Of a DNA stretch of 64,000 nt, positions 17,388 through 37,389 are shown piece by piece; positions within the stretch are counted from its first letter, which is position 1; each line of letters begins with the position of its first letter. The notes beneath the pieces are model-generated. The model was not told the DNA's origin. It saw nothing but the letters and a program-made list of their open reading frames with translations, and did no database searches. The stretch is from contig NZ_CP028339.1 in assembly GCF_003030465.1 (NCBI RefSeq), forward strand, positions 186,001 through 250,000, read 5' to 3'. The position numbers and the translations under genes are program-made. This DNA comes from Thauera aromatica K172 (GTDB lineage Bacteria > Pseudomonadota > Gammaproteobacteria > Burkholderiales > Rhodocyclaceae).

Positions 17388-18050
17388 ATGAGCGCACTCA
17401 ATGATCAGGAAAAGCAGCTGGTGGCGTGGTTGGCCGACATGAACGAGGACGACGCGTTGGCGCTGGCCAGGCGCATGCTGCTCGAGGACAAGAAGGACCC
17501 GCTGCGCGTGCTCGAGCTGTGCCGGATGGCGATGGACGAGGTAGGCAAGCGCTTCGAGGCTGGCGATTACTTCCTCCCTGAGCTCGTGCTTGCGGGCGAG
17601 ATGCTCGAGACTGTCGGCGCCATCGCCAAGCCGCTGCTGGTCGACGGCGAGGGCGAAAGGGCGAAGAAGCTCGGCCGCGTCCTGGTGGGCACGGTGCACG
17701 GCGACCTCCACGACATCGGCAAGAACATCGTCAGCTTCATGCTCGATATCAACGGCTACGAGGTCAAGGACATCGGCATCGACGTGCCGGTGGCCACCTT
17801 CCTCGACGAGGTGCGCAGCTTCAAGCCCGACGTGGTGGCGTTGTCCGGCTTCCTGACCCTGGCGTTCGACTCGATGAAGGAGACCGTCGAAGCCTTCGAG
17901 AAGGAAGGGCTGCGCGACCAGTTCAAGATCATGGTCGGCGGCGGCCAGATCGACGAGACCGTGCGCGCCTACACCGGCGCCGACGGCTTCGGCGTCAATG
18001 CGGTGGAGGCGGTCACCCTGTGCAACAAGTGGTTGGGGGGGGCGGCATGA
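17388..18050 (+). CDS. corrinoid protein (B12-binding methyl carrier, MtaC/MtbC type)
   Basis: 220 residues from ATG 17388, behind GGAGGG. Residues 1-90 form the helical cap (B12-binding domain 1). Residues 97-215 form the Rossmann B12 domain with the D106-L-H108-D-I-G111 motif, whose His is the lower axial cobalt ligand, followed by SGFLT and VGGGQID. The size and two-domain layout match corrinoid proteins of methanol, methylamine and methoxy-aromatic methyltransferase systems. It carries the methyl group between methyltransferase I (next gene, ATGA overlap) and methyltransferase II. It is the first gene of an eight-gene operon. Confidence 0.94.
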   Translation: MSALNDQEKQLVAWLADMNEDDALALARRMLLEDKKDPLRVLELCRMAMDEVGKRFEAGDYFLPELVLAGEMLETVGAIAKPLLVDGEGERAKKLGRVLVGTVHGDLHDIGKNIVSFMLDINGYEVKDIGIDVPVATFLDEVRSFKPDVVALSGFLTLAFDSMKETVEAFEKEGLRDQFKIMVGGGQIDETVRAYTGADGFGVNAVEAVTLCNKWLGGAA

Positions 18051-19333
18051 ACGCCCCGGCCCACGCCCACGGCGCAGCGCCCGCTGCCGCGCCGCAAGCC
18101 AATCCTGCCTATCAGGCACGCTGGCAACGTGTCATGGATTGCGTCAACCTGAAGCAGCCCGATCGCATGCCGACCGCGCTGTTCATGATGTTCTGGGCGG
18201 CCAAGTACGGCAACATCAGCTTTCGGGAGCAGATGTACAACCAGGAAAAACTGTGCGAGCTCACCCTCCAGATCACCCGCGAGCTCGATCCCGACCTGTG
18301 CACACCGACCCCGTTGATCACCGGCTTTGGTCGCCTGCTCGATGCCGTCGATTACCGTCAGGTCGAGTGGCCCGGCCATGGTGTGTCGGATGATCGACCG
18401 TTTCAGTATCTCGATCGGGAGTACATGAGCGCGGACGAATACGATGACTTCCTGTTCGATCCGACTGGTTTTTATTATGGCAAGTATCTGCCGCGTGTTG
18501 CGGGGGCGTTCGAGGGCTGCGAGGGGATCGCGTCGATGGCCGGCGCGTCCTACTTCGACGTGATCTATAACACCGCGCCCTTTGCCAACCCAGCCCTGCA
18601 AAAATCGATGGCGCGCCTTGCCGAAGCTGGCCAGGAAGCCATGCAGCTATTCGCCTGCGCCGGCAAGCTGATGGGCCAACTCGGCGGCATGGGCTATCCA
18701 TCGGGAATCGGGGGGGTCGCCATCGGGCCTTACGACAACATTGCCGACTATTTCCGCGGTGCCACGGCGATGATGAAGGATTTGTACCGGCGTCCGGACA
18801 AGATTCTTCAAGTGCTCGACAAGATGAAGGAACTGTCGCTGCGCCGGCTGGCTGCGCAAAAGCCGATGCTGAGCAGCCCGCTGATCTTCATTCCGGTGCA
18901 CTGGGCCCCGGATGCCTTCATGTCGCAAAAACAGTTCGAGAAGTTTTGGTGGCCTTCCTTCCGCGAACTGCTGCTCGGCATCATCGACCTCGATCTGATC
19001 CCAATGCCGCTGTGGGAAGCGGACTGCACCAAGCGCCTGGAGACGATCCGCGACGTGCCCGCGGGCAAGTGCATCTACTGGTTCGAGCGCACTGACATGG
19101 TCAGGGCGCACGAGGTGCTCGGCGACGTGGTTGCGCTGCGCGGTGGAATGCATCCTTCGGTGATGACAATGGGAACACCAGAGGATGTCGATACCGCGGT
19201 CAAGCACCTGGTCGACAACGTCTGGAACAAGGGCGGCAAGCTGATCCTCGACACTGCCTTCGGCATTCCCGACGAGACTCCGGTCGCCAACGTGCGCGCG
19301 ATGTACGCTGCCGCGCGCAAGTACGCCGGTTGA
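18047..19333 (+). CDS. corrinoid-dependent methyltransferase, UroD family (methyltransferase I candidate)
   Basis: 428 residues from ATG 18047, overlapping the corrinoid gene stop. The whole protein is a uroporphyrinogen decarboxylase-like TIM barrel, the fold of MtaA/MtbA/CmuA-type methyltransferases, with a short Ala/Pro-rich N-terminal tail. The usual H-x-C zinc motif at the barrel edge is not seen: His285 lies in IPVHWAPDAF, and the expected position reads E324-A-D-C327. So the zinc ligands, and perhaps the substrate class, differ from the methanol and methylthiol enzymes. It probably transfers a methyl group between the organic substrate and the corrinoid protein. It could demethylate (O-, N- or S-methyl) or, as in bacterial estrogen conversion, methylate. 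Confidence 0.83.
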   Translation: MNAPAHAHGAAPAAAPQANPAYQARWQRVMDCVNLKQPDRMPTALFMMFWAAKYGNISFREQMYNQEKLCELTLQITRELDPDLCTPTPLITGFGRLLDAVDYRQVEWPGHGVSDDRPFQYLDREYMSADEYDDFLFDPTGFYYGKYLPRVAGAFEGCEGIASMAGASYFDVIYNTAPFANPALQKSMARLAEAGQEAMQLFACAGKLMGQLGGMGYPSGIGGVAIGPYDNIADYFRGATAMMKDLYRRPDKILQVLDKMKELSLRRLAAQKPMLSSPLIFIPVHWAPDAFMSQKQFEKFWWPSFRELLLGIIDLDLIPMPLWEADCTKRLETIRDVPAGKCIYWFERTDMVRAHEVLGDVVALRGGMHPSVMTMGTPEDVDTAVKHLVDNVWNKGGKLILDTAFGIPDETPVANVRAMYAAARKYAG

Positions 19334-19361
19334 CGCACGCGAGCGCCTGGAGTCCGCGACC

Positions 19362-20036
19362 ATGTCCGCACTGAGCTGCGCGAGCCTGCTGCGCCAGCTG
19401 CCCCCGCCGGCGCCCGATGAGCGTCCCGGAGCGCAGCGCCGGCGCGCGGCGGCGCTCGCCGAAGTGTGCGCCGACGCCCTCGTCGAGCCTGCCTACAGTG
19501 TGCGCATCGTCGCGCTCGAAGCCCCGCCAGGCGCGATCCTGCGTGCCGGCGGCCAGTGCCTGCATGCCCCGCGCCTGGTGCCGGCCTCGGGCCGGCTCAC
19601 CGCCCTCGGCGCGGTGGCGTGCACGCTCGGGCCGCGCCTGGAAGAGCGCGTGCGGGCCCATTTCGCCGCCCGCCGCCCGGCCGCCGCGCTCGCCCTCGAC
19701 GAGCTGGGCACCGCGCTGCTGCTCGCGCTCGTACGCCACGCCCAGGACCGCCTGGTCGCGCAGGCCGCCCGTCGCGGCCTGAGCGTGGCCGGCGAGCTCG
19801 CCGCGGGCGACCCCGGACTCGCGCTCGACGCCCAGGCCACCGTGCTCCAGCTCGCCGACGGCGCAGCGATCGGCATGCGCGCCAGTGCCGCGGGCGCGCT
19901 TCATCCACTCAAGTCGTGCACCAGCGTGCACGGGGTCGGCATCGCGCTCCCCGCCACCGCCTGGTCGCGCTGCGACGCCTGCCCCTCGGCGCCGCGGTGC
20001 ACGATCGCGCGCCGGCGCAAGGAGATTCCCGCATGA
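19362..20036 (+). CDS. MetH activation domain-like protein of a corrinoid system
   Basis: 224 residues. It resembles the stand-alone vitamin B12-dependent methionine synthase activation proteins found beside corrinoid methyltransferases: an ALGAVACTLGPRLEERV stretch, LHPLKSCTSVHGVG near residue 185 (the position of the conserved S-adenosylmethionine/B12-contacting loop), and a Cys-rich C-terminus CDACPSAPRC. In MetH this domain reductively re-methylates inactive cob(II)alamin with AdoMet. Here it may bind the corrinoid protein during repair, next to the RACE protein encoded downstream. The start is ATG 19362, and its stop overlaps the RACE start (ATGA). The function is inferred from family and context. 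Confidence 0.68.
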   Translation: MSALSCASLLRQLPPPAPDERPGAQRRRAAALAEVCADALVEPAYSVRIVALEAPPGAILRAGGQCLHAPRLVPASGRLTALGAVACTLGPRLEERVRAHFAARRPAAALALDELGTALLLALVRHAQDRLVAQAARRGLSVAGELAAGDPGLALDAQATVLQLADGAAIGMRASAAGALHPLKSCTSVHGVGIALPATAWSRCDACPSAPRCTIARRRKEIPA

Positions 20037-22159
20037 ACCGCAGCCAGGAGCATGCCCGCGCCGCGGACGCGGCGACCGAGTCCAACCTCCCCGCGGACAT
20101 AGCACCCGAGTCCGGCTTTCCCGCGGATGCGGCGCCCGAACCCGGTCTCCCCGCCGACGCCGGCGCCCCCAATGCGTCCTACCGCCTGTATTTCCCCCAG
20201 CTCGAACGCGAGATCGCCTGCGAAGCGGGTGAGAGCCTGTTTCACGCCGCCCGCCGCCACGGCGTGCGCATCGTCGGCGCCTGCGGCGGACGTGGCACCT
20301 GCGCGAGCTGCATGGTGCGGGTCAGCGAGGGTGCGCTGCGCCCGCTCGAGGGGCGCGGCCCGCAGGGCTTCGACATCGTCCTCGACGACGAGGGGCGGCC
20401 GACGAACCGGCGGCGCTGGATGCGCGCCTGCCGCATCGGCGCACGCAGCGACTGCACCGTCGAGATCGGCGCGCGCTCGCTGGCGCCGGTGGTGCGCGCC
20501 GAGGAAGAAAGCGCGCTCGCCGGCGAAGAGGCCGCTCCCGCCCTCGCGCTCGACCCCGCCGTCCGTGCGCACGAGCTCGACGTCCCCGCGCCCAGCCTCG
20601 CCGACGATCGCGCCGATGCCGACCGCGTGCTCGACGCTTGCCGCGAGCGGGAAGCGCACGAAGCCGGGCAGCGGATGATTCCGGCTGCGCAAGACGCCGC
20701 CACACTCGCAGCGCCCCCGCGCGCGCTCACCGTCGCCCCCGCTGCCACCGCCGAACTCGCCACCGTGCTGCGCGCCGGCAGCGGCCCCCGTTGCCGCCTG
20801 CGCGCCTGGCAGCGGGGCGGGGCGCTGATCGCGTTCGCCCCGAGCGGGCGGCGCAGCCTGGGGCTGGCGGTCGATCTGGGCACCACCAACCTGGCCGCCT
20901 TCCTCGTCGATCTGGACGACGGCCGCACGCTCGCCCGCCTCGGCGTGGAGAACCCGCAGACCGCCTGGGGCGCCGACCTGGTGAGCCGCATCGACCATGC
21001 GGCGGGCGATCCCAAGGTCGCCGAGGCCCTGCGCGCCGCCGCACTTGAGGCGATCGATGCGCTCGCCCACGACCTGTGCGCCAGCATCGGCCAGCGCCCG
21101 CAGGACATCGTCGATGTCGCCGTGTGCGGCAACACCGCCATGCACCACCTGCTGCTCGGCCTGCCAGTGCGCCAGCTCGGGCGCGCGCCCTTCGTCGCCG
21201 CGCTGCGCGACAGCGTCGACCTGAGCGCGCGCGAGCTCGGGCTCGCCGTGGCCCCCGGCGCCTGGGTCCACGTCGCCCCCAACATCGGCGGCTTCATCGG
21301 CGGCGACCACGTCACCGCGCTGCTCGCCACCGAGTCACGCTGGCGCGGACTCGGCTGCGCGCTGGTGATGGACATCGGCACCAACACCGAGATCAGCCTC
21401 ATCCACCGCGGCCGGCTGTGGTCGGCGTCCTCGCCCTCGGGGCCGGCGCTCGAAGGCGGGCACATCGGCTGCGGCATGCGCGCGGCCGAAGGCGCGATCG
21501 AGAAAGTCACCCTCGAAGACGGGCGTCTGGCGGTGCACACCATCGGCGGCGGTGAGGCGGTCGGGCTGTGCGGCTCGGGTGTGCTCGACGCGGTGGCCGC
21601 GCTGCGCCGCGGCGGCCTGCTCGATGCCCGCGGCCGGCTGAGCGCCACCCACCCGGACATCGTCAGCGGCGAAGACGGCCGGCGTGCCGCCCAGCTCGCC
21701 CCCGAAGTGCTGTTCACCCAGGCCGACGTGCGCGCGGTGCAACTGGCCAAGGCCGCGATCCGCAGCGCTACCGAGCTGCTGCTGGCCGAAGCCGGGCTCG
21801 CCGAGGACGCGATCGAGTGCTTCATCCTCGCCGGCGCCTTCGGCGCCTACCTCGACATCGACAGCGGCATCGACATCGGCCTGTTCCCGCCGTTGCCGCG
21901 CAGCCGCTTTGTCCAGGTCGGCAACGCCGCCGGGCAGGGCGTGCGCCACCTGCTGCGGTCGTGCGCCGAGCGCGAACACGCGCGCGAACTGGCACGCACC
22001 GCGCAGGCGTGCGCGCTCAACGCCCGCGCCGATTTCCAGAACGTCTTCCTCCGCCACATCGGCTTTGCCGAGCCCCCCGAGATATCCGAACCCTCCGAGG
22101 CCGCCGCGACGACGGCCTGCGCCAACCCAAGCACCGCCACTGAAGAGAGTCCGTCATGA
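20033..22159 (+). CDS. RACE-type corrinoid activation protein (2Fe-2S ferredoxin plus ASKHA ATPase)
   Basis: 708 residues from ATG 20033, behind AAGGAG; the longer open frame from 19466 overlaps the previous gene and is not used. Residues 1-48 are a low-complexity stretch with three near-repeats of the type SNLPAD/SGFPAD/PGLPAD. Residues 49-150 form a plant-type [2Fe-2S] domain with C84, C90, C93 and C133. After a linker, residues from about 275 form the ASKHA ATPase domain (GLAVDLGTTNLAAFLVDL, VMDIGTNTEISL, CGSGVLDAVAAL, LAGAFGAYLDI). Such proteins use ATP and a low-potential electron to reduce cob(II)amide back to cob(I)amide after accidental oxidation. It overlaps its neighbours by ATGA on both sides. 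The electron donor is not in this operon. Confidence 0.93.
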   Translation: MNRSQEHARAADAATESNLPADIAPESGFPADAAPEPGLPADAGAPNASYRLYFPQLEREIACEAGESLFHAARRHGVRIVGACGGRGTCASCMVRVSEGALRPLEGRGPQGFDIVLDDEGRPTNRRRWMRACRIGARSDCTVEIGARSLAPVVRAEEESALAGEEAAPALALDPAVRAHELDVPAPSLADDRADADRVLDACREREAHEAGQRMIPAAQDAATLAAPPRALTVAPAATAELATVLRAGSGPRCRLRAWQRGGALIAFAPSGRRSLGLAVDLGTTNLAAFLVDLDDGRTLARLGVENPQTAWGADLVSRIDHAAGDPKVAEALRAAALEAIDALAHDLCASIGQRPQDIVDVAVCGNTAMHHLLLGLPVRQLGRAPFVAALRDSVDLSARELGLAVAPGAWVHVAPNIGGFIGGDHVTALLATESRWRGLGCALVMDIGTNTEISLIHRGRLWSASSPSGPALEGGHIGCGMRAAEGAIEKVTLEDGRLAVHTIGGGEAVGLCGSGVLDAVAALRRGGLLDARGRLSATHPDIVSGEDGRRAAQLAPEVLFTQADVRAVQLAKAAIRSATELLLAEAGLAEDAIECFILAGAFGAYLDIDSGIDIGLFPPLPRSRFVQVGNAAGQGVRHLLRSCAEREHARELARTAQACALNARADFQNVFLRHIGFAEPPEISEPSEAAATTACANPSTATEESPS

Positions 22160-23058
22160 CTGAAAGCACCCTCAGCGAAACCAACCGCTTCGGCATCCGC
22201 ATCATCGGCGAGCGCATCAACCCCGGCTTCAAGAGCACGCGCGCGATGTTCGAGGACAAGGACCTCGCCGCCATCCAGGCGCTCGCGCTCAAGCAGGTCG
22301 AGGCCGGCGCCTTCGCCCTCAACGTCAACATCGGCCCGCAGGCGATGACCGACCGTGGCTTCCTGGTCGACGTGATTCGCGCCATCCAGGACGTGGTCGC
22401 GGTGCCGCTGTCGTTCGATGTGCCCACCACCGAGCTCTTCGCCCTGTGCCTCACCACCTACGATCGTGAGCGCACCGGCGGCGAGCTGGCGATCGTCAAC
22501 TCCATCACCGAACACCGCTGGGAAGCGATGCAGCTCTACCGCGACCTGCCGTTCCGGGTCATGGTGATGGCCTCCGAGCGCGTCACCGACGGCGTGGCGA
22601 AGAACAACAAGACCGCCGAGGACATCGCCGCCACCGCACGGCGCGCGGCGCTGCGCCTGCGCGACGAATACGGCATGGCGCTCGATCACGTCTTCGTCGA
22701 CCTGTCGGTGAGCGCGATCATCGCCGACACCGAGGGCCTGAACCGCGCCACCCTCGACGCGGTGCGCCTGATCGGCGCCGACCCGGACCTGAAAGGCCTG
22801 CACATGATGGGCGGACTGTCCAACATCGGCCAGCAGCTCCCGCCCAAGGCCGCCGACGGCTCGGACCTCAAGCACGGGCTGGAAAACGCCTTCCTCACCC
22901 TGGCGGTGCCGCACGGCTTCGACACCGTGCTCGGCACCCCGTGGCGCGGCTATGCGCCGCTGGCCGAAGACGACTACGTGCTCACCGCCTACCGCAACTT
23001 CCTCGACACTACCGGCAGCAACGCGCTGCGCGCGGTGCGCAAGCTCTACAAGGCCTGA
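22156..23058 (+). CDS. methyltetrahydrofolate:corrinoid methyltransferase (methyltransferase II)
   Basis: 300 residues, pterin-binding TIM barrel of the MeTr/DHPS-like family. The N-terminus reads IIGERINPGFKSTRAMFEDK, the typical opening of these enzymes (GERIN-P), followed by GAFALNVNIGP, with late segments MGGLSNIGQQLP and NAFLTLAVPHGFDTV. It would move the methyl group from the corrinoid protein to tetrahydrofolate, forming methyl-THF, or act in reverse. It overlaps the RACE stop by ATGA. With the corrinoid protein and methyltransferase I it completes a three-component methyl-transfer system. Confidence 0.92.
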   Translation: MTESTLSETNRFGIRIIGERINPGFKSTRAMFEDKDLAAIQALALKQVEAGAFALNVNIGPQAMTDRGFLVDVIRAIQDVVAVPLSFDVPTTELFALCLTTYDRERTGGELAIVNSITEHRWEAMQLYRDLPFRVMVMASERVTDGVAKNNKTAEDIAATARRAALRLRDEYGMALDHVFVDLSVSAIIADTEGLNRATLDAVRLIGADPDLKGLHMMGGLSNIGQQLPPKAADGSDLKHGLENAFLTLAVPHGFDTVLGTPWRGYAPLAEDDYVLTAYRNFLDTTGSNALRAVRKLYKA

Positions 23059-23060
23059 AC

Positions 23061-24275
23061 ATGATCCCGACCGATCGCTTTGCCGTCGTCGCCGACGGCT
23101 GGTTCGACGGTGAGCGCCTGCACGCGCACGGCCCGTTCACCTTCCGCATCGAGGAGGGGCGCATCGCCGACATCGCCGCGGGCGACTTCGGCGCGACGCT
23201 CGCCACCCAGGGGATGGAGGTCGTGCGTGGCGGCTTTCTGATGCCCGGGCTGGTCGATGCCCACGTGCACCTGTTCCTCGACGGCGCCCCGACCGACGGC
23301 GCCCAGCGCGCCGCCCATCTCAAGAAGCCGGTCGAGGACCTGGTCGACGCCGCCCGCGCGAGCGCCCGCCAGGCGCTCGCCTGCGGGGTGACCCTGGTGC
23401 GCGACGCGGGCGATCGTCACGGCATCAACCACCGGCTCCGCGACGAAGCCGCCCACAGCCCGGGCCTTGCCCGGGTGCGCTCGGCCGGGCTCGGAGTCAA
23501 GCGCCCCAAGCGCTACGGCGCCTTCATGGCGCGCGACGTCGCCGACGACGCCGCGATCCGCGACTCGGTGCGCGAACTGGCCCGCGACAGCGATGAGATC
23601 AAGCTGATCCTGACCGGGATCATCGACTTCGACGCCGGCGCGGTCACCGACGAGCCGCAGTTCGATCTGGCCGCGGCGCGCCTGGTGGTCGACACCGCGC
23701 GCGCCTGCGGGCGCACCACGATGGTCCACTGCAGCGGCGCGGCCGGACTGGAGATCGCCGCCCGCGCCGGAGTCGGCTCGATCGAGCACGGCTTCTTCAT
23801 GCGCCGCGACCTGCTGGCGCTGATGGCCGAGCATGACGTCGCATGGACGCCGACCTTCTGCCCGGTGCATTTCCAGTGGGCGCAGCCCGAGGCGGTGGGG
23901 TGGTCGGCACAGACCGTGGGCAACCTGCGCCGCATCCTCGACGAACATGCGCGCCACCTGCTCATCGCCCGCGAGCTCGGAGTGCGCCTGCTGCTCGGCA
24001 CCGACGCCGGCAGCATGGGAGTCGAGCACGGCCACGCTGTGCATGAGGAAATCGAGCGCTACCTCGAAGCGGGCCTCACCACCGCCGAAGTGCTGCAGGC
24101 CGCCACCGCCACCGCCCGCCGCCACTTTGGCCATCCCCACCCGCGCCTCGAACGCGGCGCGCCCTTCGATGCGCTGCTGCTCGAGCGCTCGCCGTTCGAG
24201 GACATCGGTGCGCTGCGCACGCCCTTGCGTGCCTGGGCGGGGCAGCCGGCCTGCGAAGGAGAAGCGCTGCAATGA
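23061..24275 (+). CDS. metal-dependent amidohydrolase
   Basis: 404 residues from ATG 23061, two bases after the methyltransferase stop. It has the amidohydrolase layout: an N-terminal beta sandwich, H68-V-H70 in LVDAHVHLFLDGAP, a His in MVHCSGAAG, a His in SIEHGFFMRR, and the catalytic Asp in LLGTDAGSMGVEHGH. This is the imidazolonepropionase/dipeptidase-like branch. It sits between methyltransferase II and FolD and overlaps folD by ATGA, so it is part of the C1 operon. It might hydrolyse a folate C1 form (formyl or methenyl) or open a ring in the demethylated product; neither is known. Confidence 0.84.
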   Translation: MIPTDRFAVVADGWFDGERLHAHGPFTFRIEEGRIADIAAGDFGATLATQGMEVVRGGFLMPGLVDAHVHLFLDGAPTDGAQRAAHLKKPVEDLVDAARASARQALACGVTLVRDAGDRHGINHRLRDEAAHSPGLARVRSAGLGVKRPKRYGAFMARDVADDAAIRDSVRELARDSDEIKLILTGIIDFDAGAVTDEPQFDLAAARLVVDTARACGRTTMVHCSGAAGLEIAARAGVGSIEHGFFMRRDLLALMAEHDVAWTPTFCPVHFQWAQPEAVGWSAQTVGNLRRILDEHARHLLIARELGVRLLLGTDAGSMGVEHGHAVHEEIERYLEAGLTTAEVLQAATATARRHFGHPHPRLERGAPFDALLLERSPFEDIGALRTPLRAWAGQPACEGEALQ

Positions 24276-28678: not shown

Positions 28679-29452
28679 ATGAACATCGCCAACCGTATTG
28701 AATTGATCGCGCTGCCCGGCCTGCCTGCAGTGAAGCCGGGCGACGCGCTCGACGGGCTGGTGGCGCAAGGCCTCGACGCCGCACGCATCGATCTGTGCGA
28801 TGGCGATGTCGTGGTGTTTGCACAAAAAGTGGTGTCGAAAGCGGAAGGCCGCCTGGTCGATCTGCGTTCGGTTACGCCATCTCCCCGGGCGGAAGAGGTG
28901 GCGCGTCAGGTGGACAAGGATCCCCGGCTGGTCGAACTCATCCTCCGCGAGTCGAAACGGATCGTGCGCCAGCGCCGGGACGTGTTGGTCGTCGAGCATC
29001 GACTCGGCTTCGTGATGGCCAATGCCGGTATCGACCAGTCCAACGTCGCGTCCGCCGCAGAGGGCGAGTTCGCCCTGCTGCTTCCCGAGGATCCGGATGC
29101 GAGTGCACTGCGCTTGCGTGCGGCGCTCGCCCGCAGCTGCGGTGCCCGTACCGGGGTGATCATCAACGACAGTTTCGGCCGGCCGTGGCGGCGCGGTACG
29201 GCGGGGGTCGCCATCGGCTGTGCCGGGCTGCCGGCGCTGCGCGACCTGCGTGGGCGGCCCGATCTGTTCGGACGCACGCTGCGCGTCACCGAGATCGGCC
29301 TGGCCGATGAAATCGCTGCTGCCGCATCGCTGCTGATGGGGCAGGCGGACGAAGCCCGGCCGGTGGTCATCGTGCGCGGTTTGGACATACATGGGCCGGC
29401 GCTGGCGGCGCAGGTGCTCGTCCGGCCGCCGGAAGAGGATCTGTTCCGGTGA
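28679..29452 (+). CDS. cofE: F420-0:gamma-glutamyl ligase CofE
   Basis: 257 residues, the length of a single-domain CofE. It has the family sequence IELIALPGLPAVKPGDALDG, GDVVVFAQKVVSKAEGR, VMANAGIDQSN and GVIINDSFGRPWRRGTAGVA. It adds glutamates to F420-0 with GTP. Actinobacterial FbiB carries an extra C-terminal nitroreductase-like domain that reduces dehydro-F420-0, and that domain is absent here. So either an unlinked reductase does this step, or the cell makes an F420 variant that does not need it, as the 3-phospho-D-glycerate route would. The stop overlaps the cofD start. Confidence 0.93.
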   Translation: MNIANRIELIALPGLPAVKPGDALDGLVAQGLDAARIDLCDGDVVVFAQKVVSKAEGRLVDLRSVTPSPRAEEVARQVDKDPRLVELILRESKRIVRQRRDVLVVEHRLGFVMANAGIDQSNVASAAEGEFALLLPEDPDASALRLRAALARSCGARTGVIINDSFGRPWRRGTAGVAIGCAGLPALRDLRGRPDLFGRTLRVTEIGLADEIAAAASLLMGQADEARPVVIVRGLDIHGPALAAQVLVRPPEEDLFR

Positions 29453-30399: not shown

Positions 30400-31064
30400 T
30401 GAAAGGCGTCTGGGCAGTGGTGCCGGCCAAGCCGTTCGAGCAGGCGAAGCAGCGTCTGAGTGGACTGCTGCCCGTCGCGGTGCGGCGGGAGTTGGCGTGG
30501 GCGATGCTGGAAGACGTGCTGGACAGTCTCTCCAGTGTCGGCCGGTTTGCCGGTATCGTCGTCGCGACGACCGATCCTGCGGTCGCCCGGGTGGCGCGTG
30601 GGCATGGTTGCGAAGTGTTCAGCGAGGAACCTGGTGGCGGCCTGAGCGCAGCGGTCATGGCCGCTGCCAGAAGGTTGGCTGCGGAAGGCTGTGGCACCGT
30701 GGTCGCCATCCCCGCCGATGTGCCCGGCATTTCAGCGCGGGAACTGGAAATGCTCCTGGAACGACATGGCGACGGGCCGGGCGTCACGCTTGTTCCTGCC
30801 CACGATGGCGGTGGGACCAACGCCATCGTGATGACCCCGCCAGATGCCATCGAGCTTGCTTACGGCGAGAACAGCTTCCGCCGCCATCTGCAGGCGGCCC
30901 GTCGTGCCGGCATGGAGGCTGCGGTCCTCACCCTGTCGGGGATCGCGCACGACATCGATTTTCCCCAGGACGTGGCGCTCTTCATGCGGCACCCCTCACC
31001 GACCCGCGCATGGCGCCGGCTGAAAACCTGTTTCGCGCTTTCCGACGATCCTCTCGCAGCATAA
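30399..31064 (+). CDS. cofC: phospho-acid guanylyltransferase CofC (FbiD)
   Basis: 221 residues from ATG 30399, behind GAGGAGG; an alternative GTG lies one codon earlier. It has a nucleotidyltransferase fold with WAVVPAKPFEQAKQRLSGLL (glycine- and lysine-rich NTP loop), VVATTDPAVARVA, VVAIPADVPGISARELEML and HDGGGTNAIVMTPP. CofC couples GTP to 2-phospho-L-lactate, phosphoenolpyruvate or 3-phospho-D-glycerate. Which one it uses decides the F420 type and cannot be read safely by eye. It is coupled to cofD by overlap and is followed eight bases later by the fused cofG-cofH gene. Confidence 0.92.
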   Translation: MKGVWAVVPAKPFEQAKQRLSGLLPVAVRRELAWAMLEDVLDSLSSVGRFAGIVVATTDPAVARVARGHGCEVFSEEPGGGLSAAVMAAARRLAAEGCGTVVAIPADVPGISARELEMLLERHGDGPGVTLVPAHDGGGTNAIVMTPPDAIELAYGENSFRRHLQAARRAGMEAAVLTLSGIAHDIDFPQDVALFMRHPSPTRAWRRLKTCFALSDDPLAA

Positions 31065-31072
31065 GGACAATC

Positions 31073-33544
31073 ATGCATTCACCCTCTTCGATCCCGGACG
31101 ATCTGTCCGCGCTACTCGAGCGTGCCCGCGCGGGAACGCCTCCCACCGAGGCCGAAGCGCAGCTACTGGCCGAGTGCAACGACTTGCAGGCATTGATGGC
31201 GACGGCTGCGGCCATTCGCGACATGGCCTTTGGTGACCGCATCACCTATTCACGCAAGGTCTTCATCCCCCTGACCCGGCTGTGCCGCGACAGTTGTGGC
31301 TATTGCACCTTCTCCCAGCAGCCGAAGCTGGGTGAAAAAGTCTTTCTCGATCCCGAAGAGGTGATTGCCATCGCTGAAGCGGGGCGTCGCGCCGGCTGCA
31401 AGGAAGCGCTGTTTACCCTCGGCGATCAGCCTGAGGCACGCTATCCGGCAGCGCGCGAGGAGCTCGCTGCGCGCGGCTATGCCAGCACGCTGGATTATCT
31501 CGGGGCGATGGCCGCACTGGTCCTCGAGCGCACCGGCCTGCTCCCCCACCTCAATCCCGGAATCATGCCGCGCAATGCGTTGCAGACATTGCGCCCACAC
31601 GCGGTGTCGATGGGGCTGATGCTTGAGAGTACGGCCGAGCGCCTGGGCCGGCGCGGCGGCCCTCATGCCGGCTGCCCGGACAAGCATCCCGCGATGCGCC
31701 TGGCGGCGATCGCAGCAGCGGGCGAGGCGGCGATTCCATTTACCAGCGGGATCCTGGTCGGGATCGGCGAGACACGCGCCGAGCGCATCGACGCCCTGCT
31801 TGCCTTGCGTGCCCTCCATGAACGCTACGGCCACCTCCAGGAGCTCATCATCCAGAATTTCCGGGCCAAACCGGGTACGGCGATGGCGCACGCGGCCGAG
31901 CCGCCATTCGAGGAGCATTTGTGGACCGTCGCCGTGGCGCGCATCCTGCTGCGCGGGACGACGAGCATCCAGGCTCCGCCCAACCTGAGTGCCGGTGCGC
32001 ACACGCGCCTGATCGAGGCTGGCCTCGACGACTGGGGTGGCGTTTCTCCCGTCACCTGCGATCACGTGAATCCGGAAGCGCCCTGGCCACAGCTCGATGT
32101 GCTCGCGCAGTCCTGCGCGGCGGCTGGGAAAGTGCTGGTCGAACGCCTCGCCACACATCCCCGCTACCTGGATGCCGCCGACCGGTGGTTGGCGCCGGAA
32201 ATCCGGAAACGGGTGCTGTCGTTGATGGATGCGGCGTGCCACGCACGTCCGGACGACTGGTCGCCGGGAAGTGCGGCAGTGCTGCGGCCAGAGCCGCAGC
32301 ACGTGCGCGGTCATGCCGGCACTCCGGCGCGGAGGGCTCTGATTCGAACGCTTGACGGCCTGCTTGCCGGACGGGAGCCGACGGAGGCGGAGGTTGTCGC
32401 CCTGTTCGATGCCCGCGATGAAGATTTCTGGCTGGTATGCCGAGCCGCCGATATGCTGCGGCGCGAAGCCAACGGCGAGGTGGTGGGCTACGTTGTCAAC
32501 CGCAACATCACCTATACCAACCTGTGCATTTACCAGTGCCGTTTCTGCGCTTTCTCGAAGGGCAAGTTCAGCGCCAACCTGCGTGGCCAGCCTTATGACT
32601 TCGATCTGGCGGAAATCGCACGGCGTGCCGCAGAGGGCTGGGCGCGCGGTGCAACCGAGGTGTGCATCCAGGGAGGCATCCACCCGTCCTACAACGGGCA
32701 GCACTATCTGGATATCGTCGCCGCCGTGAAGGCGGCCGCACCGGACATCCATATTCACGCGTTCTCGCCCCTGGAAATCCAGCAGGGAGCGGCCAGCCTG
32801 GGGATGGACATCCGCGCCTTCCTGACCGAACTCAGGCAGGCTGGCCTGGGCACCTTGCCGGGAACGGCGGCCGAGATCCTGGATGACGAGGTTCGCCGCC
32901 TGATCTGTCCGGACAAGCTTTCCACTGAGCAATGGCTCAACGTGGTGGAAACCGCTCATGCCGTAGGGCTGCCCACGACCGCCACCATCATGTTCGGCCA
33001 TGTCGAGCGGCCGGTGCACTGGGCGCGCCACCTGCTTCATCTGCGCCGCCTGCAGATGCGTACTGGTGGGCTGACCGAATTCATTCCGTTGCCGTTCATC
33101 GCGGAGCAGACCCCCTTGTTCCTGAAAGGGCGTTCGCGTGCAGGGGCGACGTTGCGCGAATCGGTGCTGATGCATGCGGTGGCGCGGCTGGTCCTGCATC
33201 CCTTGGTCAGGAACATCCAGGCCTCCTGGGTCAAGATGGGGCGGCAGGGGATCGAGCTGTGTCTGGCGGCAGGGGTCAACGATTTCGGCGGCACGCTGAT
33301 GGACGAAAGCATTTCTCGCGCGGCCGGGGCCGAGCATGGCCAGGAGATGAGCCCCGCGGAGATCGAGTCCGCGATCCGTGCCTGCGGGCGCACTCCGCGG
33401 CAGCGCACCACCCTGTATGGCGACGTGACGGCCGAACGGCGTGCGCGGGCAAATACCCATTACCGCAACCACCCCGGCTGCGCCCAGGTGCCGGAGGTCG
33501 CGTCCAGAACCGAAGGAGAGCAGGATGCATGCGTTTTACCGTAG
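31073..33544 (+). CDS. fbiC: FO synthase, fused CofG-CofH (FbiC type)
   Basis: 823 residues from ATG 31073, behind AAGGAC; the open frame from 30338 overlaps cofC and is not used. It has two radical SAM domains in the FbiC order. The N-terminal CofG half has C71-x3-C75-x2-C78 (RLCRDSCGYCTFSQQ), and the C-terminal CofH half has C485-x3-C489-x2-C492 (NLCIYQCRFCAFSKG). Together they join 5-amino-6-ribitylamino-uracil and tyrosine to form FO, the deazaflavin chromophore. The fusion is typical of actinobacteria and of the scattered proteobacteria that make F420, while archaea mostly keep the genes apart. It overlaps the FrhB-like gene by 20 bases. Confidence 0.95.
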   Translation: MHSPSSIPDDLSALLERARAGTPPTEAEAQLLAECNDLQALMATAAAIRDMAFGDRITYSRKVFIPLTRLCRDSCGYCTFSQQPKLGEKVFLDPEEVIAIAEAGRRAGCKEALFTLGDQPEARYPAAREELAARGYASTLDYLGAMAALVLERTGLLPHLNPGIMPRNALQTLRPHAVSMGLMLESTAERLGRRGGPHAGCPDKHPAMRLAAIAAAGEAAIPFTSGILVGIGETRAERIDALLALRALHERYGHLQELIIQNFRAKPGTAMAHAAEPPFEEHLWTVAVARILLRGTTSIQAPPNLSAGAHTRLIEAGLDDWGGVSPVTCDHVNPEAPWPQLDVLAQSCAAAGKVLVERLATHPRYLDAADRWLAPEIRKRVLSLMDAACHARPDDWSPGSAAVLRPEPQHVRGHAGTPARRALIRTLDGLLAGREPTEAEVVALFDARDEDFWLVCRAADMLRREANGEVVGYVVNRNITYTNLCIYQCRFCAFSKGKFSANLRGQPYDFDLAEIARRAAEGWARGATEVCIQGGIHPSYNGQHYLDIVAAVKAAAPDIHIHAFSPLEIQQGAASLGMDIRAFLTELRQAGLGTLPGTAAEILDDEVRRLICPDKLSTEQWLNVVETAHAVGLPTTATIMFGHVERPVHWARHLLHLRRLQMRTGGLTEFIPLPFIAEQTPLFLKGRSRAGATLRESVLMHAVARLVLHPLVRNIQASWVKMGRQGIELCLAAGVNDFGGTLMDESISRAAGAEHGQEMSPAEIESAIRACGRTPRQRTTLYGDVTAERRARANTHYRNHPGCAQVPEVASRTEGEQDACVLP

Positions 33545-35000
33545 CAGTTTCAAGGACATGATGAATGATGTCGTGGCGGCAGGCGCGTGCTGCGAATGCG
33601 GAAGCTGCGTCGCAGTCTGCCCGCACGGCATCATCAGGTATGTCGATGGCAAGCCTGAACGAGCCTCGAAAACGCCCGCTCCCTTCGACAAGTGCGGCGT
33701 CAGCGAAGGAATCGGGTGCGATGTCTGCGCCGCGGTCTGTCCGCGCCTGTGGCCGCGTGAGCCGCATCTGCGCGGTGTCGCGTTCTCCGACGATCGTGGC
33801 TACGAAGGCATTTTCGGGGTCTATCGCCATATCTTCGTGGCGCGCACGCGCGACCAGGATGTGCTCGGCCGCGCCCAGGATGGCGGCGTGGTCACCGCCT
33901 TGCTGGCCTGGGCGCGGGAGGCTGGCCACATCGACGGCGCCGTCGTCGCCGCGGTGGGCGAACAGGATGAGCCGTGCTTCCCCACGCCCAAGCTGGCGAC
34001 CACGGTGGAGCAGATCCGGGCGAGTGCCGGTAGCTGGTACACGTATTGCCCGAATACGCTCGCCTTGAGCGAGGCCAAGGAGCGAAATCTCGGTCGCCTC
34101 GCCTTCGTCGGTGTGCCGTGCCAGATCACGCCGCTACGCAAGATGGTGCATACCGATGCCGGCATGCTGCTGAAGGCCGGCAAGAAGCCTCACGTGGTTG
34201 CGCGCCAGCGTGAATTCATGCGCGATCCGGCTGGGCGAGTTGCCTTCGCGGTTGGTCTGTTCTGCACCGAAGTGTTCACGCCGGCGTTGATGACCGAGCG
34301 TGTCGCAGAGCGGATGGACATTCCGCTTTCCGACATCAGCAAGGTCAATGTCAAAGGTGAGGTGCGCATCTTCCGCAAGAGCGGTGCGGAGATGGGGCGG
34401 ATCCCGCTCGAGGAAGCGATGGGTGATTATCAGCGTCCTGCCTGCCAGCATTGTGGTGATTTCTCCGCCGAAATGGCCGACATCAGTTGCGGCGGAGTCG
34501 GCACCGATGCTGCCACCATCGTCGTGCTGCGGACGCAGAAGGGGGTGGAGCTCTGGCGCGATTTCGAGGCCAGCGGCCAGGTCGACGTATGGCCGATCGC
34601 CGAGCATAAGAAGGCGTGGAGTATCCTCCTGCGCCTGGCCAGGCAGCAGCGGGAGCGCGTACCGCAGCGCGCGGCGCATACCGGTTCGGCGCCGGAGCTG
34701 CCGGGATATGTCCCCGGCGACGATGCCAGACGCGGGCATCAAATGCTGACCGAGGCCGGAAAATCCGCCGAAGAAATCGCCGCCTGCCTTGCGGCAGCCT
34801 ACGAGGAAGCCGGAGGCTCGGCCAGCGTGAGCAGCGCTCCGGGATGGGTCATTCCCGGCGATCCGGGCGAGCCTGCGCCCGGCGAGAAGCGCCGCCTGCC
34901 ACCTCCGCCGCACCCGGAGCAGGGGGGAGGATCGCCGTCTGGCTGTATGGAAAAACACGTTTCAGCACCGATGGATGGCATTGCAACAATCGATTTGTGA
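33525..35000 (+). CDS. FrhB-type coenzyme F420 oxidoreductase beta subunit-like protein
   Basis: 491 residues from ATG 33525, behind AAGGAGAG. The N-terminus carries ferredoxin-like Cys clusters (CCECGSCVAVCPHG near residue 19, CDVCAAVCPR near 67). It is followed by the FrhB/FdhB N and C domains (VGVPCQITPLRKM; CQHCGDFSAEMADISCGGVG), which hold FAD and [4Fe-4S] clusters and let F420H2 exchange electrons. The last 100 residues are a Pro/Gly-rich extension. FrhB proteins join F420 to ferredoxin, sulfite, formate or hydrogenase partners. No partner hydrogenase or formate dehydrogenase is adjacent, so it may supply electrons to an unlinked acceptor, to the RACE protein, or to the MetVF fusion. 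That link is inference. Confidence 0.88.
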   Translation: MHAFYRSSFKDMMNDVVAAGACCECGSCVAVCPHGIIRYVDGKPERASKTPAPFDKCGVSEGIGCDVCAAVCPRLWPREPHLRGVAFSDDRGYEGIFGVYRHIFVARTRDQDVLGRAQDGGVVTALLAWAREAGHIDGAVVAAVGEQDEPCFPTPKLATTVEQIRASAGSWYTYCPNTLALSEAKERNLGRLAFVGVPCQITPLRKMVHTDAGMLLKAGKKPHVVARQREFMRDPAGRVAFAVGLFCTEVFTPALMTERVAERMDIPLSDISKVNVKGEVRIFRKSGAEMGRIPLEEAMGDYQRPACQHCGDFSAEMADISCGGVGTDAATIVVLRTQKGVELWRDFEASGQVDVWPIAEHKKAWSILLRLARQQRERVPQRAAHTGSAPELPGYVPGDDARRGHQMLTEAGKSAEEIAACLAAAYEEAGGSASVSSAPGWVIPGDPGEPAPGEKRRLPPPPHPEQGGGSPSGCMEKHVSAPMDGIATIDL

Positions 35001-35060: not shown

Positions 35061-35675
35061 ATGCCGTCAGTGGAGCTGGAAGCCCGCGTTGCTCGCCTGG
35101 AGGACCACCGGGACATCTGCAATCTGCAGGGGCGCTACAACCATTATCTGCAGACCGGGCAGTTGAAGGACAAGCTGCCCGAGCTGTTCGCCCTCGATCA
35201 TCCGCAGGTCAGGGCCGAGCTGTGCGACAGCGGGCTGTGGGAGGGGCGTGATGGCGTCATCCGCCTGTTCACCCATATGGGAGCGAAGTACGCCAGACCG
35301 GGATCGTTGATGGTGCATATGCTGCTTACTCCCGTGGTGGAAGTGAGTGCGGATGGTGTACATGCTCACGGTATGTGGAATTCGCTCGGCACCAACACCT
35401 ACGAGAATGGCGAGGGCGAACTCGAGGCCATGTGGCAACTCGGCAAGTACGACCTGACTTTCTGCAAGATAGAGGGGCGCTGGAAGTATCTGGCGTTTCG
35501 CTGGTACGTGATTTTCCGCACCCCATTTCATGAAGGGTGGGTGAATCGGCCGCTGGTGGAGGGCCTCCATGAGTCGGGTTTTCCGCCCGTCGGGCCATTC
35601 CACACGCCTTACGACCCCACCAAAACCGACAACCGCTTCCTGCCCTGCCCGCCGGAGCCGGAGTTCCGGCGATAA
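35061..35675 (+). CDS. SnoaL-like (NTF2 fold) protein
   Basis: 204 residues. The N-terminal helix LEARVARLEDHRDICNLQGR followed by YNHYLQTGQL, then LVHMLLTPVVEVSADGVHAH and GRWKYLAFRWYVIFRTPFHE, match the SnoaL_4 type of NTF2-fold proteins, small alpha+beta cones that act as cyclases, dehydratases or isomerases of polyketide- and steroid-like substrates. The ATG at 35061 is chosen by frame; an earlier ATG at 35054 is out of frame. It follows the FrhB-like gene by 60 bases and precedes the EthD-like gene by 29, so it belongs to the operon. Catalytic residues are not certain. Confidence 0.75.
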   Translation: MPSVELEARVARLEDHRDICNLQGRYNHYLQTGQLKDKLPELFALDHPQVRAELCDSGLWEGRDGVIRLFTHMGAKYARPGSLMVHMLLTPVVEVSADGVHAHGMWNSLGTNTYENGEGELEAMWQLGKYDLTFCKIEGRWKYLAFRWYVIFRTPFHEGWVNRPLVEGLHESGFPPVGPFHTPYDPTKTDNRFLPCPPEPEFRR

Positions 35676-35704: not shown

Positions 35705-36484
35705 ATGCCCATCAAACTGATGGCGGCGTCACGCCGCCGACCCGGCCTGACCCGGGCCGAGTACCAACGCTACCTGGAGTTCTATCACGGCACCATTGCG
35801 CGCCGAGAACGCTTCAAGATCGACTCCTACATCCAGAACCACGTGATCGATGGCGCCTTCGGTACGCTCGGGGACGAAACACACCAGCAGGTGGCCGACC
35901 GTGACGCGGTGGTCGAGCTGACGTTCGCCAACTTCCCCGACATGCTTGCCACCCTGGAGCCCGCCACGCCTTCGGCCGCCTCCCAGGACGGCAAATTCTT
36001 CGCCGACGAATGCAACAACATCATCGTCATGGCCGAGGAGGAGGAAATTCCGGTGCCCAGTCCGCTGCCGAGCTTCAACCCGGGACTGGGTATCGTCCAG
36101 GGGGTGGGCGCGCTCAAGGTGCTGCACTACATCATGCGTGACGATACCGTCTATCGCGAGGACTACTACCAGTACTGGCGTGAGGCCCATGAAGAAGCGC
36201 TTGAAAAGGCGCCCTATGCGCGTGAGCAATTGCGTCGCTGCGTGGCCAACAAGCGCTGCCGCATCAACGACAACGATGGTGCGGCGCGCAAGCACTTCAA
36301 GATGGTGGATCCGCCGGTTTATGACTTGGTGGTGAGCCACTGGTACGACACGATGGAGCACGCCGGCGCTTTCCGGCAGTACCAGGAAGCGCTGATGAAA
36401 AACACGCGGAAATTCGCCAACTGGTCGAAGTCCTTTTATCTCTATACCAAGCAGATCGTGATCATTCGCGACACCGAAAAATGA
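35705..36484 (+). CDS. double EthD-like protein (second copy)
   Basis: 259 residues from ATG 35705, behind GAGGAG. Its two halves start with IKLMAASRRRPGLTRAEYQR and ALKVLHYIMRDDTVYREDYYQYW, both EthD-like strand-helix units, so the chain looks like a fused pseudo-dimer, as in the copy at 12 kb. An acidic linker (MAEEEEIPVPSPLPS) separates the halves. The next gene is a full-length PhlG-like hydrolase, repeating the EthD-PhlG pairing of region 1. A role in cyclising or cleaving a polyketide-like ring is inferred from the family only. Confidence 0.72.
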   Translation: MPIKLMAASRRRPGLTRAEYQRYLEFYHGTIARRERFKIDSYIQNHVIDGAFGTLGDETHQQVADRDAVVELTFANFPDMLATLEPATPSAASQDGKFFADECNNIIVMAEEEEIPVPSPLPSFNPGLGIVQGVGALKVLHYIMRDDTVYREDYYQYWREAHEEALEKAPYAREQLRRCVANKRCRINDNDGAARKHFKMVDPPVYDLVVSHWYDTMEHAGAFRQYQEALMKNTRKFANWSKSFYLYTKQIVIIRDTEK

Positions 36485-36495
36485 TGGAGGCAGCC

Positions 36496-37389
36496 ATGAC
36501 AGCGACGATCGAACTGAGCGTGCAGAAGGATTTCAAGGATTGGTACGCCTCGACTCCGGTCAAGGCGAAGCGCCCGGAACTGAGCCCGGAAGAGCAGGCT
36601 CGGCCTTTCGCCAAGTATTACCACGAGGATATCCCTCGCCCCGATCCTGGCCACCTGGCGCTGATGGACTCGCCCTGCGATCCGGCCAGGGCGATCGGCC
36701 CGGAGCGGATGAACGACCTGCTCGACCCGGGTTACCTCGAGGTGGAGGTTGGCTGGTGCAATCTGCCCAACGGCGCCGGCTTCATCGCCAACAAGATGCT
36801 CTATCCGGACATCACGGCCGAGATGATCGACTGGTGGTTTGCCTGGCATGCGCTCGAAGACCTGCGCTATCGCATCTGGTACCCCCCTCAGCACGCCGGC
36901 ATCATGCTGAGCCCTGAAGGCCGCAAGCGCCTTCTCGACCCGAGCGTCCCGATGGTCGAGAAGAACTGGGGCGTGACCCACCACGTCACTGAAAACTGCG
37001 ATTGCGGGATGGAGAACATCGACATCACCTTTCTTTCTCCCCGGGACTTCGGTTTCGACATGAGCCGCTGGAAACAGCCTTACGTTGCCACGTTTGCCGG
37101 CGGCTATGGGTGGGCGGTGACCGTGAACAAGACGGACGAGTCGATCACCGCGCCCGCGCTGATGTGCCACATCTTCCGTGATACGCCGGAAGGCCTGGAG
37201 CATCGCACCCGTTTCTGGCTGGGCTACCGCATGTCGGGCGGCAAGCCTGAACTGTCCCTGCCGCCCGGCGTCGCGGTCCCGGTTGAAGCCATCCGTGGTC
37301 TTGCCCGCCACAACGTCAAGGAATTCACCCGCTTCAAGCATTTCCTGCCCCGCATCCACGCCGAGTTCGGCGGCGGGATGACCGCGTAA
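36496..37389 (+). CDS. DAPG hydrolase (PhlG)-like C-C hydrolase, full length
   Basis: 297 residues from ATG 36496, placed behind GGAGG; an ATG 15 bases upstream sits on the previous stop. Counting from that upstream ATG, candidate zinc ligands matching the His-Glu-His-Glu set of Pseudomonas PhlG are His138 (PPQHAG), Glu171 (HHVTENCDCG), and His277 and Glu281 in the H-x-x-x-E motif of ARHNVKEF. PhlG hydrolyses the acetyl group of 2,4-diacetylphloroglucinol, a C-C bond next to a phenol ring. Similar length and motifs suggest hydrolysis of an acylated phenol or beta-diketone. It ends the operon, 37 bases before a strong terminator. Confidence 0.8.
   Translation: MTATIELSVQKDFKDWYASTPVKAKRPELSPEEQARPFAKYYHEDIPRPDPGHLALMDSPCDPARAIGPERMNDLLDPGYLEVEVGWCNLPNGAGFIANKMLYPDITAEMIDWWFAWHALEDLRYRIWYPPQHAGIMLSPEGRKRLLDPSVPMVEKNWGVTHHVTENCDCGMENIDITFLSPRDFGFDMSRWKQPYVATFAGGYGWAVTVNKTDESITAPALMCHIFRDTPEGLEHRTRFWLGYRMSGGKPELSLPPGVAVPVEAIRGLARHNVKEFTRFKHFLPRIHAEFGGGMTA

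Follow-up and report, generated by a model that had tools for sequence, protein, structure and literature searches.

What brings a corrinoid methyl-transfer operon, a coenzyme F420 operon and a C-C hydrolase of the phloretin hydrolase family (PhlG) together in Thauera aromatica K172 is the question raised by the stretch analysed here, a window of 64,000 nucleotides (C1:186001-250000, contig NZ_CP028339.1) of a 3.71 Mb genome in two contigs. The corrinoid operon (17388-26585) and the F420/PhlG operon (27641-37389) lie in the same stretch with about 1.06 kb between them, and the genes that a first-pass annotation had named in them are present, open and in family (Pfam, NCBIfam), one label excepted. 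That annotation had drawn the feature at 17388-37389, which does hold both operons, but the island reaches further, from upstream of the window to an acetoacetate-CoA ligase. We regard a polyphenol island as real and well supported. We lean towards reading it as a mosaic catabolic island whose substrate is a plant polyphenol of the phloroglucinol type, methoxylated and acylated and most likely a flavonoid or dihydrochalcone. On this reading, a flavonoid or acylphloroglucinol bearing methoxy groups is degraded by way of phloroglucinol, with acetoacetate as the product, and the route includes O-demethylation by the corrinoid system and a redox step linked to F420.

Of this route, it is the phloroglucinol end that is well supported. 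The row of genes that enters the window from upstream comprises a cyclase (PF04199), a cupin, a short-chain dehydrogenase/reductase (SDR), a 3HCDH-type dehydrogenase, a BKACE protein and an MFS transporter. The BKACE protein scores over the cut-off of NF053538 (Table 1), a curated equivalog for 3,5-dioxohexanoate:acetyl-CoA acetone transferase, and is thus assigned as triacetate acetoacetate-lyase (TAL). The gene for the dehydrogenase, predicted to form triacetate, starts at C1:185600 upstream of the window (L137:3601-4512), and its product is 59% identical to a counterpart in a Rhodobacteraceae locus (L042). The cyclase resembles DPGC (PF04199, E 7.9e-37) and carries CWPYF, with Trp and Tyr two residues apart, a W-P-Y spacing read without alignment to the Clostridium scatologenes DPGC itself, in which Trp20/Tyr22 are reported at the substrate site (PMC10470551, cited, as are all papers here, from available excerpts). 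The SDR, a possible PGR, reached the cut-off for none of the 25 NCBIfam families listed out of 191. In C. scatologenes, whose phloroglucinol pathway runs through PGR, DPGC, TfD and TAL, the genes for BKACE, for a dehydrogenase resembling 3HCDH and for a hydrolase of the 'cyclase' family likewise stand close together; in contrast, the island joins them to PhlG, F420 and corrinoid modules, and its far end holds an acetoacetate-CoA ligase where the C. scatologenes paper names a CoA transferase (PMC10470551). The pathway first proposed for the locus, in which a methoxylated, acylated phenolic is demethylated and then cleaved, fits, and steps further down can be seen as well (3,5-dioxohexanoate transferase, cyclase, dehydrogenase); calling it undescribed was too strong, because its phloroglucinol end is already described in C. 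scatologenes.

PhlG, from which phloroglucinol would be released, has its nearest solved structure in phloretin hydrolase (5xe5, E 2.4e-39), followed by the DAPG hydrolase PhlG (E 2.7e-27). It keeps all four Zn ligands His, Glu, His, Glu (H138, E171, H277 and E281) at the positions that we take to bind the metal. The short PhlG-like protein PhlG2 is 65-66% identical to proteins of the Rhodobacteraceae loci L042 and L043 and 56% to one of the actinobacterial locus L139, all of which adjoin a chalcone isomerase; as it has a Gln at the E171 position, the same as in the L042 relative, it may not be an ordinary hydrolase. By gene order, EthD2 sits where L042 has its chalcone isomerase. A fold search with the model of the tandem EthD protein beside PhlG returned a fold in common with bacterial chalcone isomerase among others. 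Identity with chalcone isomerase at the level of sequence was considered and rejected, since there was no PDB match to one and no Chalcone_N match (E up to 1).

To place PhlG in a wider setting, its relatives were scanned over the contigs of 84,980 species, which gave 31 loci (L046, L057 and L058 having the whole-genome shotgun prefixes of L040, L049 and L052). Nineteen loci, at 63-80% identity, fall in Pseudomonadota including a Vibrio, Acidobacteria and relatives (Holophagaceae, Bryobacterales) and Actinobacteria; L059-L068, at 23-42%, were left out of the genome searches, and 18 carrier genomes were searched for F420 and UroD genes. EthD lies directly upstream of PhlG in 13 loci and beside it in seven of the eight proteobacterial carriers, with none in the 20 kb read of Vibrio salinus. 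SnoaL relatives of 64-73% adjoin EthD-PhlG in L039, L047 and, truncated where its contig stops, L038, with a more remote one in L058. The Castellaniella locus L039 has in common with the window the second LysR regulator (60%, adjoining EthD-PhlG) and the thiamine pyrophosphate (TPP) enzyme (76%). Two Rhodobacteraceae metagenome-assembled genomes (MAGs; L042, L043) carry EthD-PhlG with an LLM-class oxidoreductase (31%), the PhlG2 relative and a bacterial chalcone isomerase (in L042 PF18232 E 1.7e-29; 4d06 E 1.3e-56), and L042 additionally carries the cyclase, 3HCDH dehydrogenase and BKACE. A Chalcone_N protein (E 6e-7) stands between two PhlG genes in L049. SnoaL-PhlG of L058 comes after genes for an Fe-S protein and a subunit like that of pyrogallol hydroxytransferase (PF21423). 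In Actinobacteria, the genes of L139 run from three UroD-type pieces through those for an FMN_red protein, chalcone isomerase (56%) and the PhlG2 relative to one for a FAD_binding_2 protein; L138 has a chalcone isomerase gene with two UroD genes about 0.8 kb away, and L140 one with four UroD genes about 8 kb off. The Flavonifractor plautii FLR is an FMN-dependent ene-reductase (PMC7862272), and by analogy the FMN_red protein of L139 may be its counterpart.

Among 19 genomes examined, namely the 18 carriers and our own, Chalcone_N was matched in ten, not including ours and in two cases weakly (E 1.4e-5 and 4.3e-8), and it was matched in 0 of 398 Pseudomonadota, a search in which no control matched, although the same model did match in the 19-genome search. 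A PhlG relative of 77% (L040) belongs to isolate CTSoil_007, and CTSoil_7 is the Holophaga MAG of a study of tannin-fed anoxic soil in which Holophaga phloretin-hydrolase peptides, from this or another PhlG gene of the MAG, were detected; the isolate names CTSoil_007/080/081 (L040/L046, L059, L061) fit its Holophaga and Sporomusales MAGs (PMC8084988). Separately, an acidobacterial locus (L051) encodes a FAD_binding_2 ene-reductase-like protein fused to a PhlG2-like domain adjoining PhlG, and long open reading frames (ORFs) resembling this fusion occur in L048, L054 and L056. Carriers of PhlG that can be cultured include Rubrivivax gelatinosus, Castellaniella defragrans and Vibrio salinus. Vibrio salinus has an F420 operon (npdG, cofE, cofC, cofD, split cofH/cofG; L107), a PhlG relative of 65% (L053) and a chalcone isomerase 66% identical to that of L042 (L141), on three different contigs.

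The corrinoid operon holds the component set of an O-demethylase, with a UroD-type methyltransferase I, corrinoid protein, methyltransferase II and RACE-type activator. O-demethylation is moderately supported, and methoxylated aromatics are its putative substrates, suggested by gene context. The motif DxHxxG, which we take to be that of such corrinoid proteins, can be read off the sequence of the first gene product. Methyltransferase I has its nearest solved relative in CdmB (E 2.9e-36), and methyltransferase II matched NF005719 under the cut-off (E 3.5e-28). The ATGA coupling described for the operon was borne out at four of its seven junctions, which are 4-base overlaps, but the other three are gaps of 2, 16 and 28 bases. 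The excepted label concerns 19362-20036, called MetH-activation-like, a label that found no support in Pfam (E up to 5) or NCBIfam (E up to 1e-5); this protein is conserved in corrinoid operons of other genomes of the family. Our genome contains a second corrinoid operon, with metVF first (L015 10664-18956 against window 17416-26540), of which 5.5 kb are 98% identical to the window copy, metVF is 77% identical and most of UroD has diverged, the outcome of a recent duplication or gene conversion. In another genome of the family, a gene for glutathione-independent formaldehyde dehydrogenase (TIGR02819, over cut-off) follows the syntenic corrinoid operon (L019 16506-17708).

Biosynthesis of F420 is complete, as had been claimed, because cofC, cofD, cofE and cofGH are all present, the last scoring 1108.7 bits against the cut-off of 1018 for NF006687. 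The FrhB-type protein has FrhB among its solved relatives and Fer4 domains under cut-off. The LLM-class protein scored 156.1 bits against the cut-off of 166.9 for TIGR03619, and it is the sole match in our genome (E up to 1e-5) to the LLM of L042. A Mer-like C1 enzyme was rejected as its identity, Mer being a weaker match in structure and sequence than flavin monooxygenases and an LLM relative standing near EthD-PhlG in a genome (G948) with no UroD match. In two other Rhodobacteraceae MAGs (L105 4804-8755, L106 4691-8642), FrhB and 2-oxoacid:acceptor oxidoreductase alpha/beta genes, the family assignment checked for L106, are followed by cofD-cofE-cofC-fbiC, an arrangement that suggests a 2-oxoacid:F420 oxidoreductase.

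Modules of the two operons also occur together elsewhere. In the MAG REEB62, one contig carries a TonB-receptor-like gene, an LLM gene (34%), npdG, cofE, cofD, cofC, fbiC, a LuxR gene (51% to that of the window) and a corrinoid gene (70%) that runs off the contig end. Another contig, with corrinoid protein, uroD, RACE, methyltransferase II and folD genes, begins with the same 100 bases, without mismatch, in which this one ends, and the two are likely joined, though a second contig also overlaps, by 36 bases. EthD-PhlG lies 1.4-1.7 kb from another uroD in the same MAG. This adjacency, together with the actinobacterial clusters of UroD and chalcone isomerase, favours a functional link of the corrinoid operon to the pathway. 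F420 operons were found in four of the eight proteobacterial PhlG carriers and an F420 ligase in 4 of 397 other Pseudomonadota (Fisher p 4.3e-6), the carriers being assigned by record title, carriers and background coming from different GTDB releases, and the background being scored on the ligase alone, with 3 in-frame stops in one of its four matches. With near kin collapsed the carrier count became 3/6 (p 6.3e-5). The carrier count excludes an Acidobacteria match in G959, dropped because no further F420 gene occurs in the stretch read. UroD matches, counted without claim of association, occur in 11 of the 18 carriers (2/8 proteobacterial), ten of these having 4-24 each.

Taken in order, we infer four steps. 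The corrinoid operon would strip O-methyl groups, methyltransferase I passing them to the corrinoid protein and methyltransferase II on to tetrahydrofolate, with RACE re-reducing cobalt and MetVF and FolD oxidising methyl-tetrahydrofolate. The LLM protein with F420, recharged via FrhB, would then reduce and rearrange the three-carbon bridge together with EthD and SnoaL, standing in for the FLR, enoate reductase and chalcone isomerase of gut bacteria. The zinc hydrolase PhlG would cleave the aryl-acyl C-C bond to phloroglucinol, the ring of which would be opened to acetoacetate units by the SDR, the DPGC-type cyclase, the triacetate-forming dehydrogenase and BKACE/TAL, and acetoacetate-CoA ligase would activate the acetoacetate. 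Read directly from the sequence are the gene families, the curated TAL assignment, the zinc ligands of PhlG, the full F420 biosynthesis set and the recurring gene neighbourhoods; the substrate, the sequence of steps, the service of the demethylase to this pathway, the part of the SDR and the whole of the second step are proposals. The more pointed version, that F420 from a dedicated operon powers LLM ene-reduction before PhlG cleavage and is coupled to corrinoid O-demethylation, so that one genome completes methoxylated-flavonoid breakdown, we put forward tentatively, as possible though somewhat doubtful.

Several observations qualify this reading. No F420 ligase match was found in 13 of the 18 PhlG carriers, so that the linkage is not general, and no UroD-type match in seven; our genome has no PF18232 chalcone isomerase match. 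The first-pass annotation had named, as what would speak against a shared pathway, that the two operons be unlinked in relatives. This came true in half: F420, corrinoid and PhlG modules are linked in one relative, REEB62, but unlinked in most relatives read. As for its proposal of F420 as pathway cofactor, F420 is enriched in proteobacterial PhlG carriers, and the F420 step is poorly supported, the structural alignment of the LLM model placing flavin monooxygenases (2i7g, RslO1, luciferases) above F420 enzymes.

Another account is that the operons are neighbours by chance, a host-native O-demethylase for simple methoxylated aromatic acids of the vanillate or syringate type beside a separate, horizontally acquired F420/PhlG pathway for acylphloroglucinols. 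PhlG was matched in our genome only among 199 genomes of the family (E up to 1e-20) and 369 of the class (E up to 1e-15), and a PF18089 protein in eight of 398 of the phylum, our own included (E up to 1e-10); being near-absent in family and class and found in few genomes of the phylum, it was probably acquired. In G+C content the corrinoid operon (0.689) is close to the locus of its second copy (0.683) and to the flank upstream (L135, 0.675), against 0.657 for LLM-FrhB and 0.58-0.64 for other island blocks. Roughly 0.5 kb separates the metVF gene that begins the second copy from a gene whose product resembles MFS transporters of aromatic acids (TIGR00895, with 411.2 bits slightly under the cut-off of 418.55). 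The UroD module occurs in four of 100 other family genomes, which carry between one and four full-length copies; one such copy (L023) has UbiD and Rieske-type genes nearby. We nevertheless think this account rather unlikely, since the F420-corrinoid adjacency recurs in REEB62, with EthD-PhlG near a uroD there, and since actinobacterial clusters unite UroD with chalcone isomerase, in L139 with the PhlG2 relative too.

Less probable again is an aerobic pathway, in which LLM would depend on flavin and act as a monooxygenase, using oxygen to hydroxylate the polyphenol or to open it, with F420 used by FrhB or another enzyme only. The ranking of the LLM model fits it, as does the EthD model, which anthrone-oxidase-like proteins match about as well as chalcone isomerase does. 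However, LLM is encoded, both here and in REEB62, in the same operon as four genes of F420 biosynthesis and is the only protein of our genome to match the L042 LLM, and the reductive phloroglucinol genes and corrinoid chemistry would point to low oxygen. Least likely is that F420H2 feeds FrhB to give low-potential electrons for RACE or MetVF, F420 thus serving the corrinoid operon and not the polyphenol steps, for although FrhB has an Fe-S-like N-terminal stretch and the 2-oxoacid oxidoreductase neighbours in the two Rhodobacteraceae described above, and F420 operons adjoin corrinoid genes here and in REEB62, the part read of the F420 locus of REEB62 contains npdG but lacks FrhB, and G948 carries F420 and FrhB with no UroD.

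The features of the island are collected in Table 1. Besides the two operons, the island includes the phloroglucinol genes, which start before the window and continue over 1-1527, as well as genes for uptake, another pair of PhlG and EthD, the TPP enzyme and acetoacetate-CoA ligase. The spacing from metVF to LLM is 1055 bases and contains a divergent LysR gene, and junctions inside the second operon range from -20 to +60 bases. The G+C of the island, which differs from block to block, supports a mosaic; the region downstream (42516-64000) is low too (0.625). It is flanked on both sides by a 1655-bp repeat (447-aa ORF) in direct orientation, 99.8% identical, with a third, inverted copy at 100%, an arrangement reminiscent of composite mobile elements. 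In the plasmid collection megablast found nothing that matched the F420 operon, and tblastn gave remote matches only (UroD in two records and PhlG in 18, all <60% identity).

Table 1. Predicted features of the island and its repeats (window positions unless a locus is named)
Feature	Position	Strand	Basis
Triacetate-forming dehydrogenase (3HCDH family), 3' part	1..511	+	PF02737 E 2.5e-50, PF00725
BKACE / triacetate acetoacetate-lyase (TAL)	529..1527	+	NF053538 522 bits (cut-off 430); PF05853 E 1e-107
MFS transporter	1546..2703	+	PF07690 E 1.2e-17
DUF1302, DUF1329, YCF48-like, MMPL module, putative hydrophobic-compound transport	2872..11171	+	Pfam
PhlG2, short PhlG-like protein	11298..11912	+	PF18089 E 1.6e-5
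EthD2	11962..12867	+	PF07110 E 5.8e-16
Molybdopterin oxidoreductase	13852..15858	+	nearest solved structure acetylene hydratase, 2e7z E 1.7e-104
LuxR-type regulator	16013..17053	-	PF00196; 34% and 51% relatives
Corrinoid protein	17388..18050	+	PF02310 E 1e-22, PF02607
UroD-type methyltransferase I	18047..19333	+	PF01208 E 1.4e-23
Conserved operon protein without family	19362..20036	+	51-56% relatives in L016, L019, L020, L022, L024
RACE-type ATP-dependent corrinoid activator	20033..22159	+	RACo C-terminal E 1.4e-67, middle E 2.1e-46, Fer2
Methyl-tetrahydrofolate:corrinoid methyltransferase (methyltransferase II)	22156..23058	+	PF00809 E 8.1e-9
Amidohydrolase	23061..24275	+	PF01979 E 2.1e-22
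FolD	24272..25183	+	PF02882 E 3.3e-68
MetV-MetF methylene-tetrahydrofolate reductase	25200..26585	+	PF02219 E 2e-31, PF12225
LysR regulator 1, divergent	26618..27538	-	PF00126, PF03466
LLM-class oxidoreductase	27641..28672	+	PF00296 (Bac_luciferase) E 3.5e-66
CofE F420 gamma-glutamyl ligase	28679..29452	+	PF01996 E 1e-79
CofD	29449..30399	+	PF01933 E 2.7e-42
CofC	30396..31064	+	PF01983 E 2.3e-26
FbiC (CofGH fusion) FO synthase	31073..33544	+	equivalog NF006687
FrhB-type F420 oxidoreductase, Fe-S N-terminus	33525..35000	+	PF04432 E 2.7e-31, PF04422
SnoaL-like protein	35061..35675	+	PF13577 (SnoaL_4) E 4.6e-16
Tandem EthD protein	35705..36484	+	PF07110 E 3.2e-15
PhlG, phloretin/DAPG-hydrolase family C-C hydrolase	36481..37389	+	PF18089 (DAPG_hydrolase) E 3.3e-71
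LysR regulator 2	37480..38406	-	PF00126
TPP-dependent enzyme	38457..40256	-	TPP domains; NF006122 817 bits (cut-off 571)
Acetoacetate-CoA ligase	40342..42348	+	TIGR01217 905 bits (cut-off 520.9)
1655-bp repeat copies	window 50565-52220; L134 11005-12660; L136 3780-5434		

The module of DUF1302, DUF1329, YCF48-like and MMPL proteins, presumably a transporter of hydrophobic compounds, is split by a transposase gene at 4863-6161. The tie of the molybdopterin oxidoreductase to the pathway is uncertain. Its ORF aligns from about residue 52 of its relative, with the Fe-S N-terminus perhaps missing or encoded from another start, and a Sporomusales MAG has a 42% relative (L059 16309-17919) at a distance of about 5.5 kb from its PhlG gene. 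Relatives of the LuxR-type regulator also adjoin corrinoid genes in L019 and L104. For flavonoid sensing of the NodD kind by the two LysR regulators, the best NCBIfam matches were BsrA and LeuO, far under cut-off, which speaks neither for nor against it, and solved relatives of the second regulator bear generic LysR names only, among the matches listed.

The favoured route resembles the anaerobic flavonoid degradation of the gut bacteria Eubacterium ramulus and Flavonifractor plautii by FLR, CHI, EnoR and phloretin hydrolase (PMC7862272, PMC10470551) in its phloretin-hydrolase-family PhlG with a Zn site and in phloroglucinol as predicted product; the fold of EthD may be that of chalcone isomerase, and related loci contain genuine enzymes of this kind. 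Unlike that route, it has F420, LLM, FrhB and a corrinoid operon adjoining in a genome with no PF18232 protein, and no FLR or EnoR turned up among the genes scanned, no genome search having been aimed at them. The O-demethylases MtvABC, OdmABCD and VdmABCD and the relatives MtoB and CdmB (PMC13222342) likewise combine a UroD-type methyltransferase I with corrinoid protein, methyltransferase II and RACE; CdmB works on haloalkanes. The window differs in having FolD, MetVF, an amidohydrolase and the familyless protein within the operon and a UroD that by percent identity (own paralogue 62%, family relatives 58-60%) would form its own sequence group beside MtvB, OdmB and VdmB. The oestrogen methyltransferase EmtABCD of Denitratisoma (PMC7448270) also transfers methyl groups through a corrinoid and has a RACE-like protein close by; oestrogen retroconversion was rejected, since EmtA resembles MtmB and the enzyme of the window UroD, and since our genome gave no match to PF05369. 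Proteobacterial F420 producers share the complete cofC/D/E set with fused cofGH; in betaproteobacterial ones the available text names Fno as the sole known F420-reducing dehydrogenase (PMC8498797), whereas here the operon for F420 biosynthesis includes FrhB and LLM together with a hydrolase of catabolism.

Both the phloretin-hydrolase step and the pathway for phloroglucinol belong to known kinds; what is new, as far as the open-licence literature shows, is their union with F420 and a corrinoid O-demethylase at one locus. In that literature no paper was found that brings F420, flavonoid, phloroglucinol and O-demethyl together and, among the matches listed, none that names F420 and also either chalcone isomerase or phloretin hydrolase. 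The role of F420 is the most interesting question of the island. As excerpted, a 2021 review states that experiments had yet to address any F420-dependent reductase or F420-reducing dehydrogenase in the bacteria newly recognised as producers, including Proteobacteria (PMC8498797), and the island offers a single testable locus for this gap, with candidate genes named for each step. The conserved SnoaL-EthD-PhlG block is a handle for finding such clusters in several phyla. If the pointed version holds, the island would give, as far as the literature searched shows, the first case of F420 acting in catabolism to degrade plant polyphenols and the first O-demethylase identified as part of a flavonoid pathway, and the pathway would spread between phyla as modules, namely SnoaL-EthD-PhlG, F420-LLM and UroD corrinoid.

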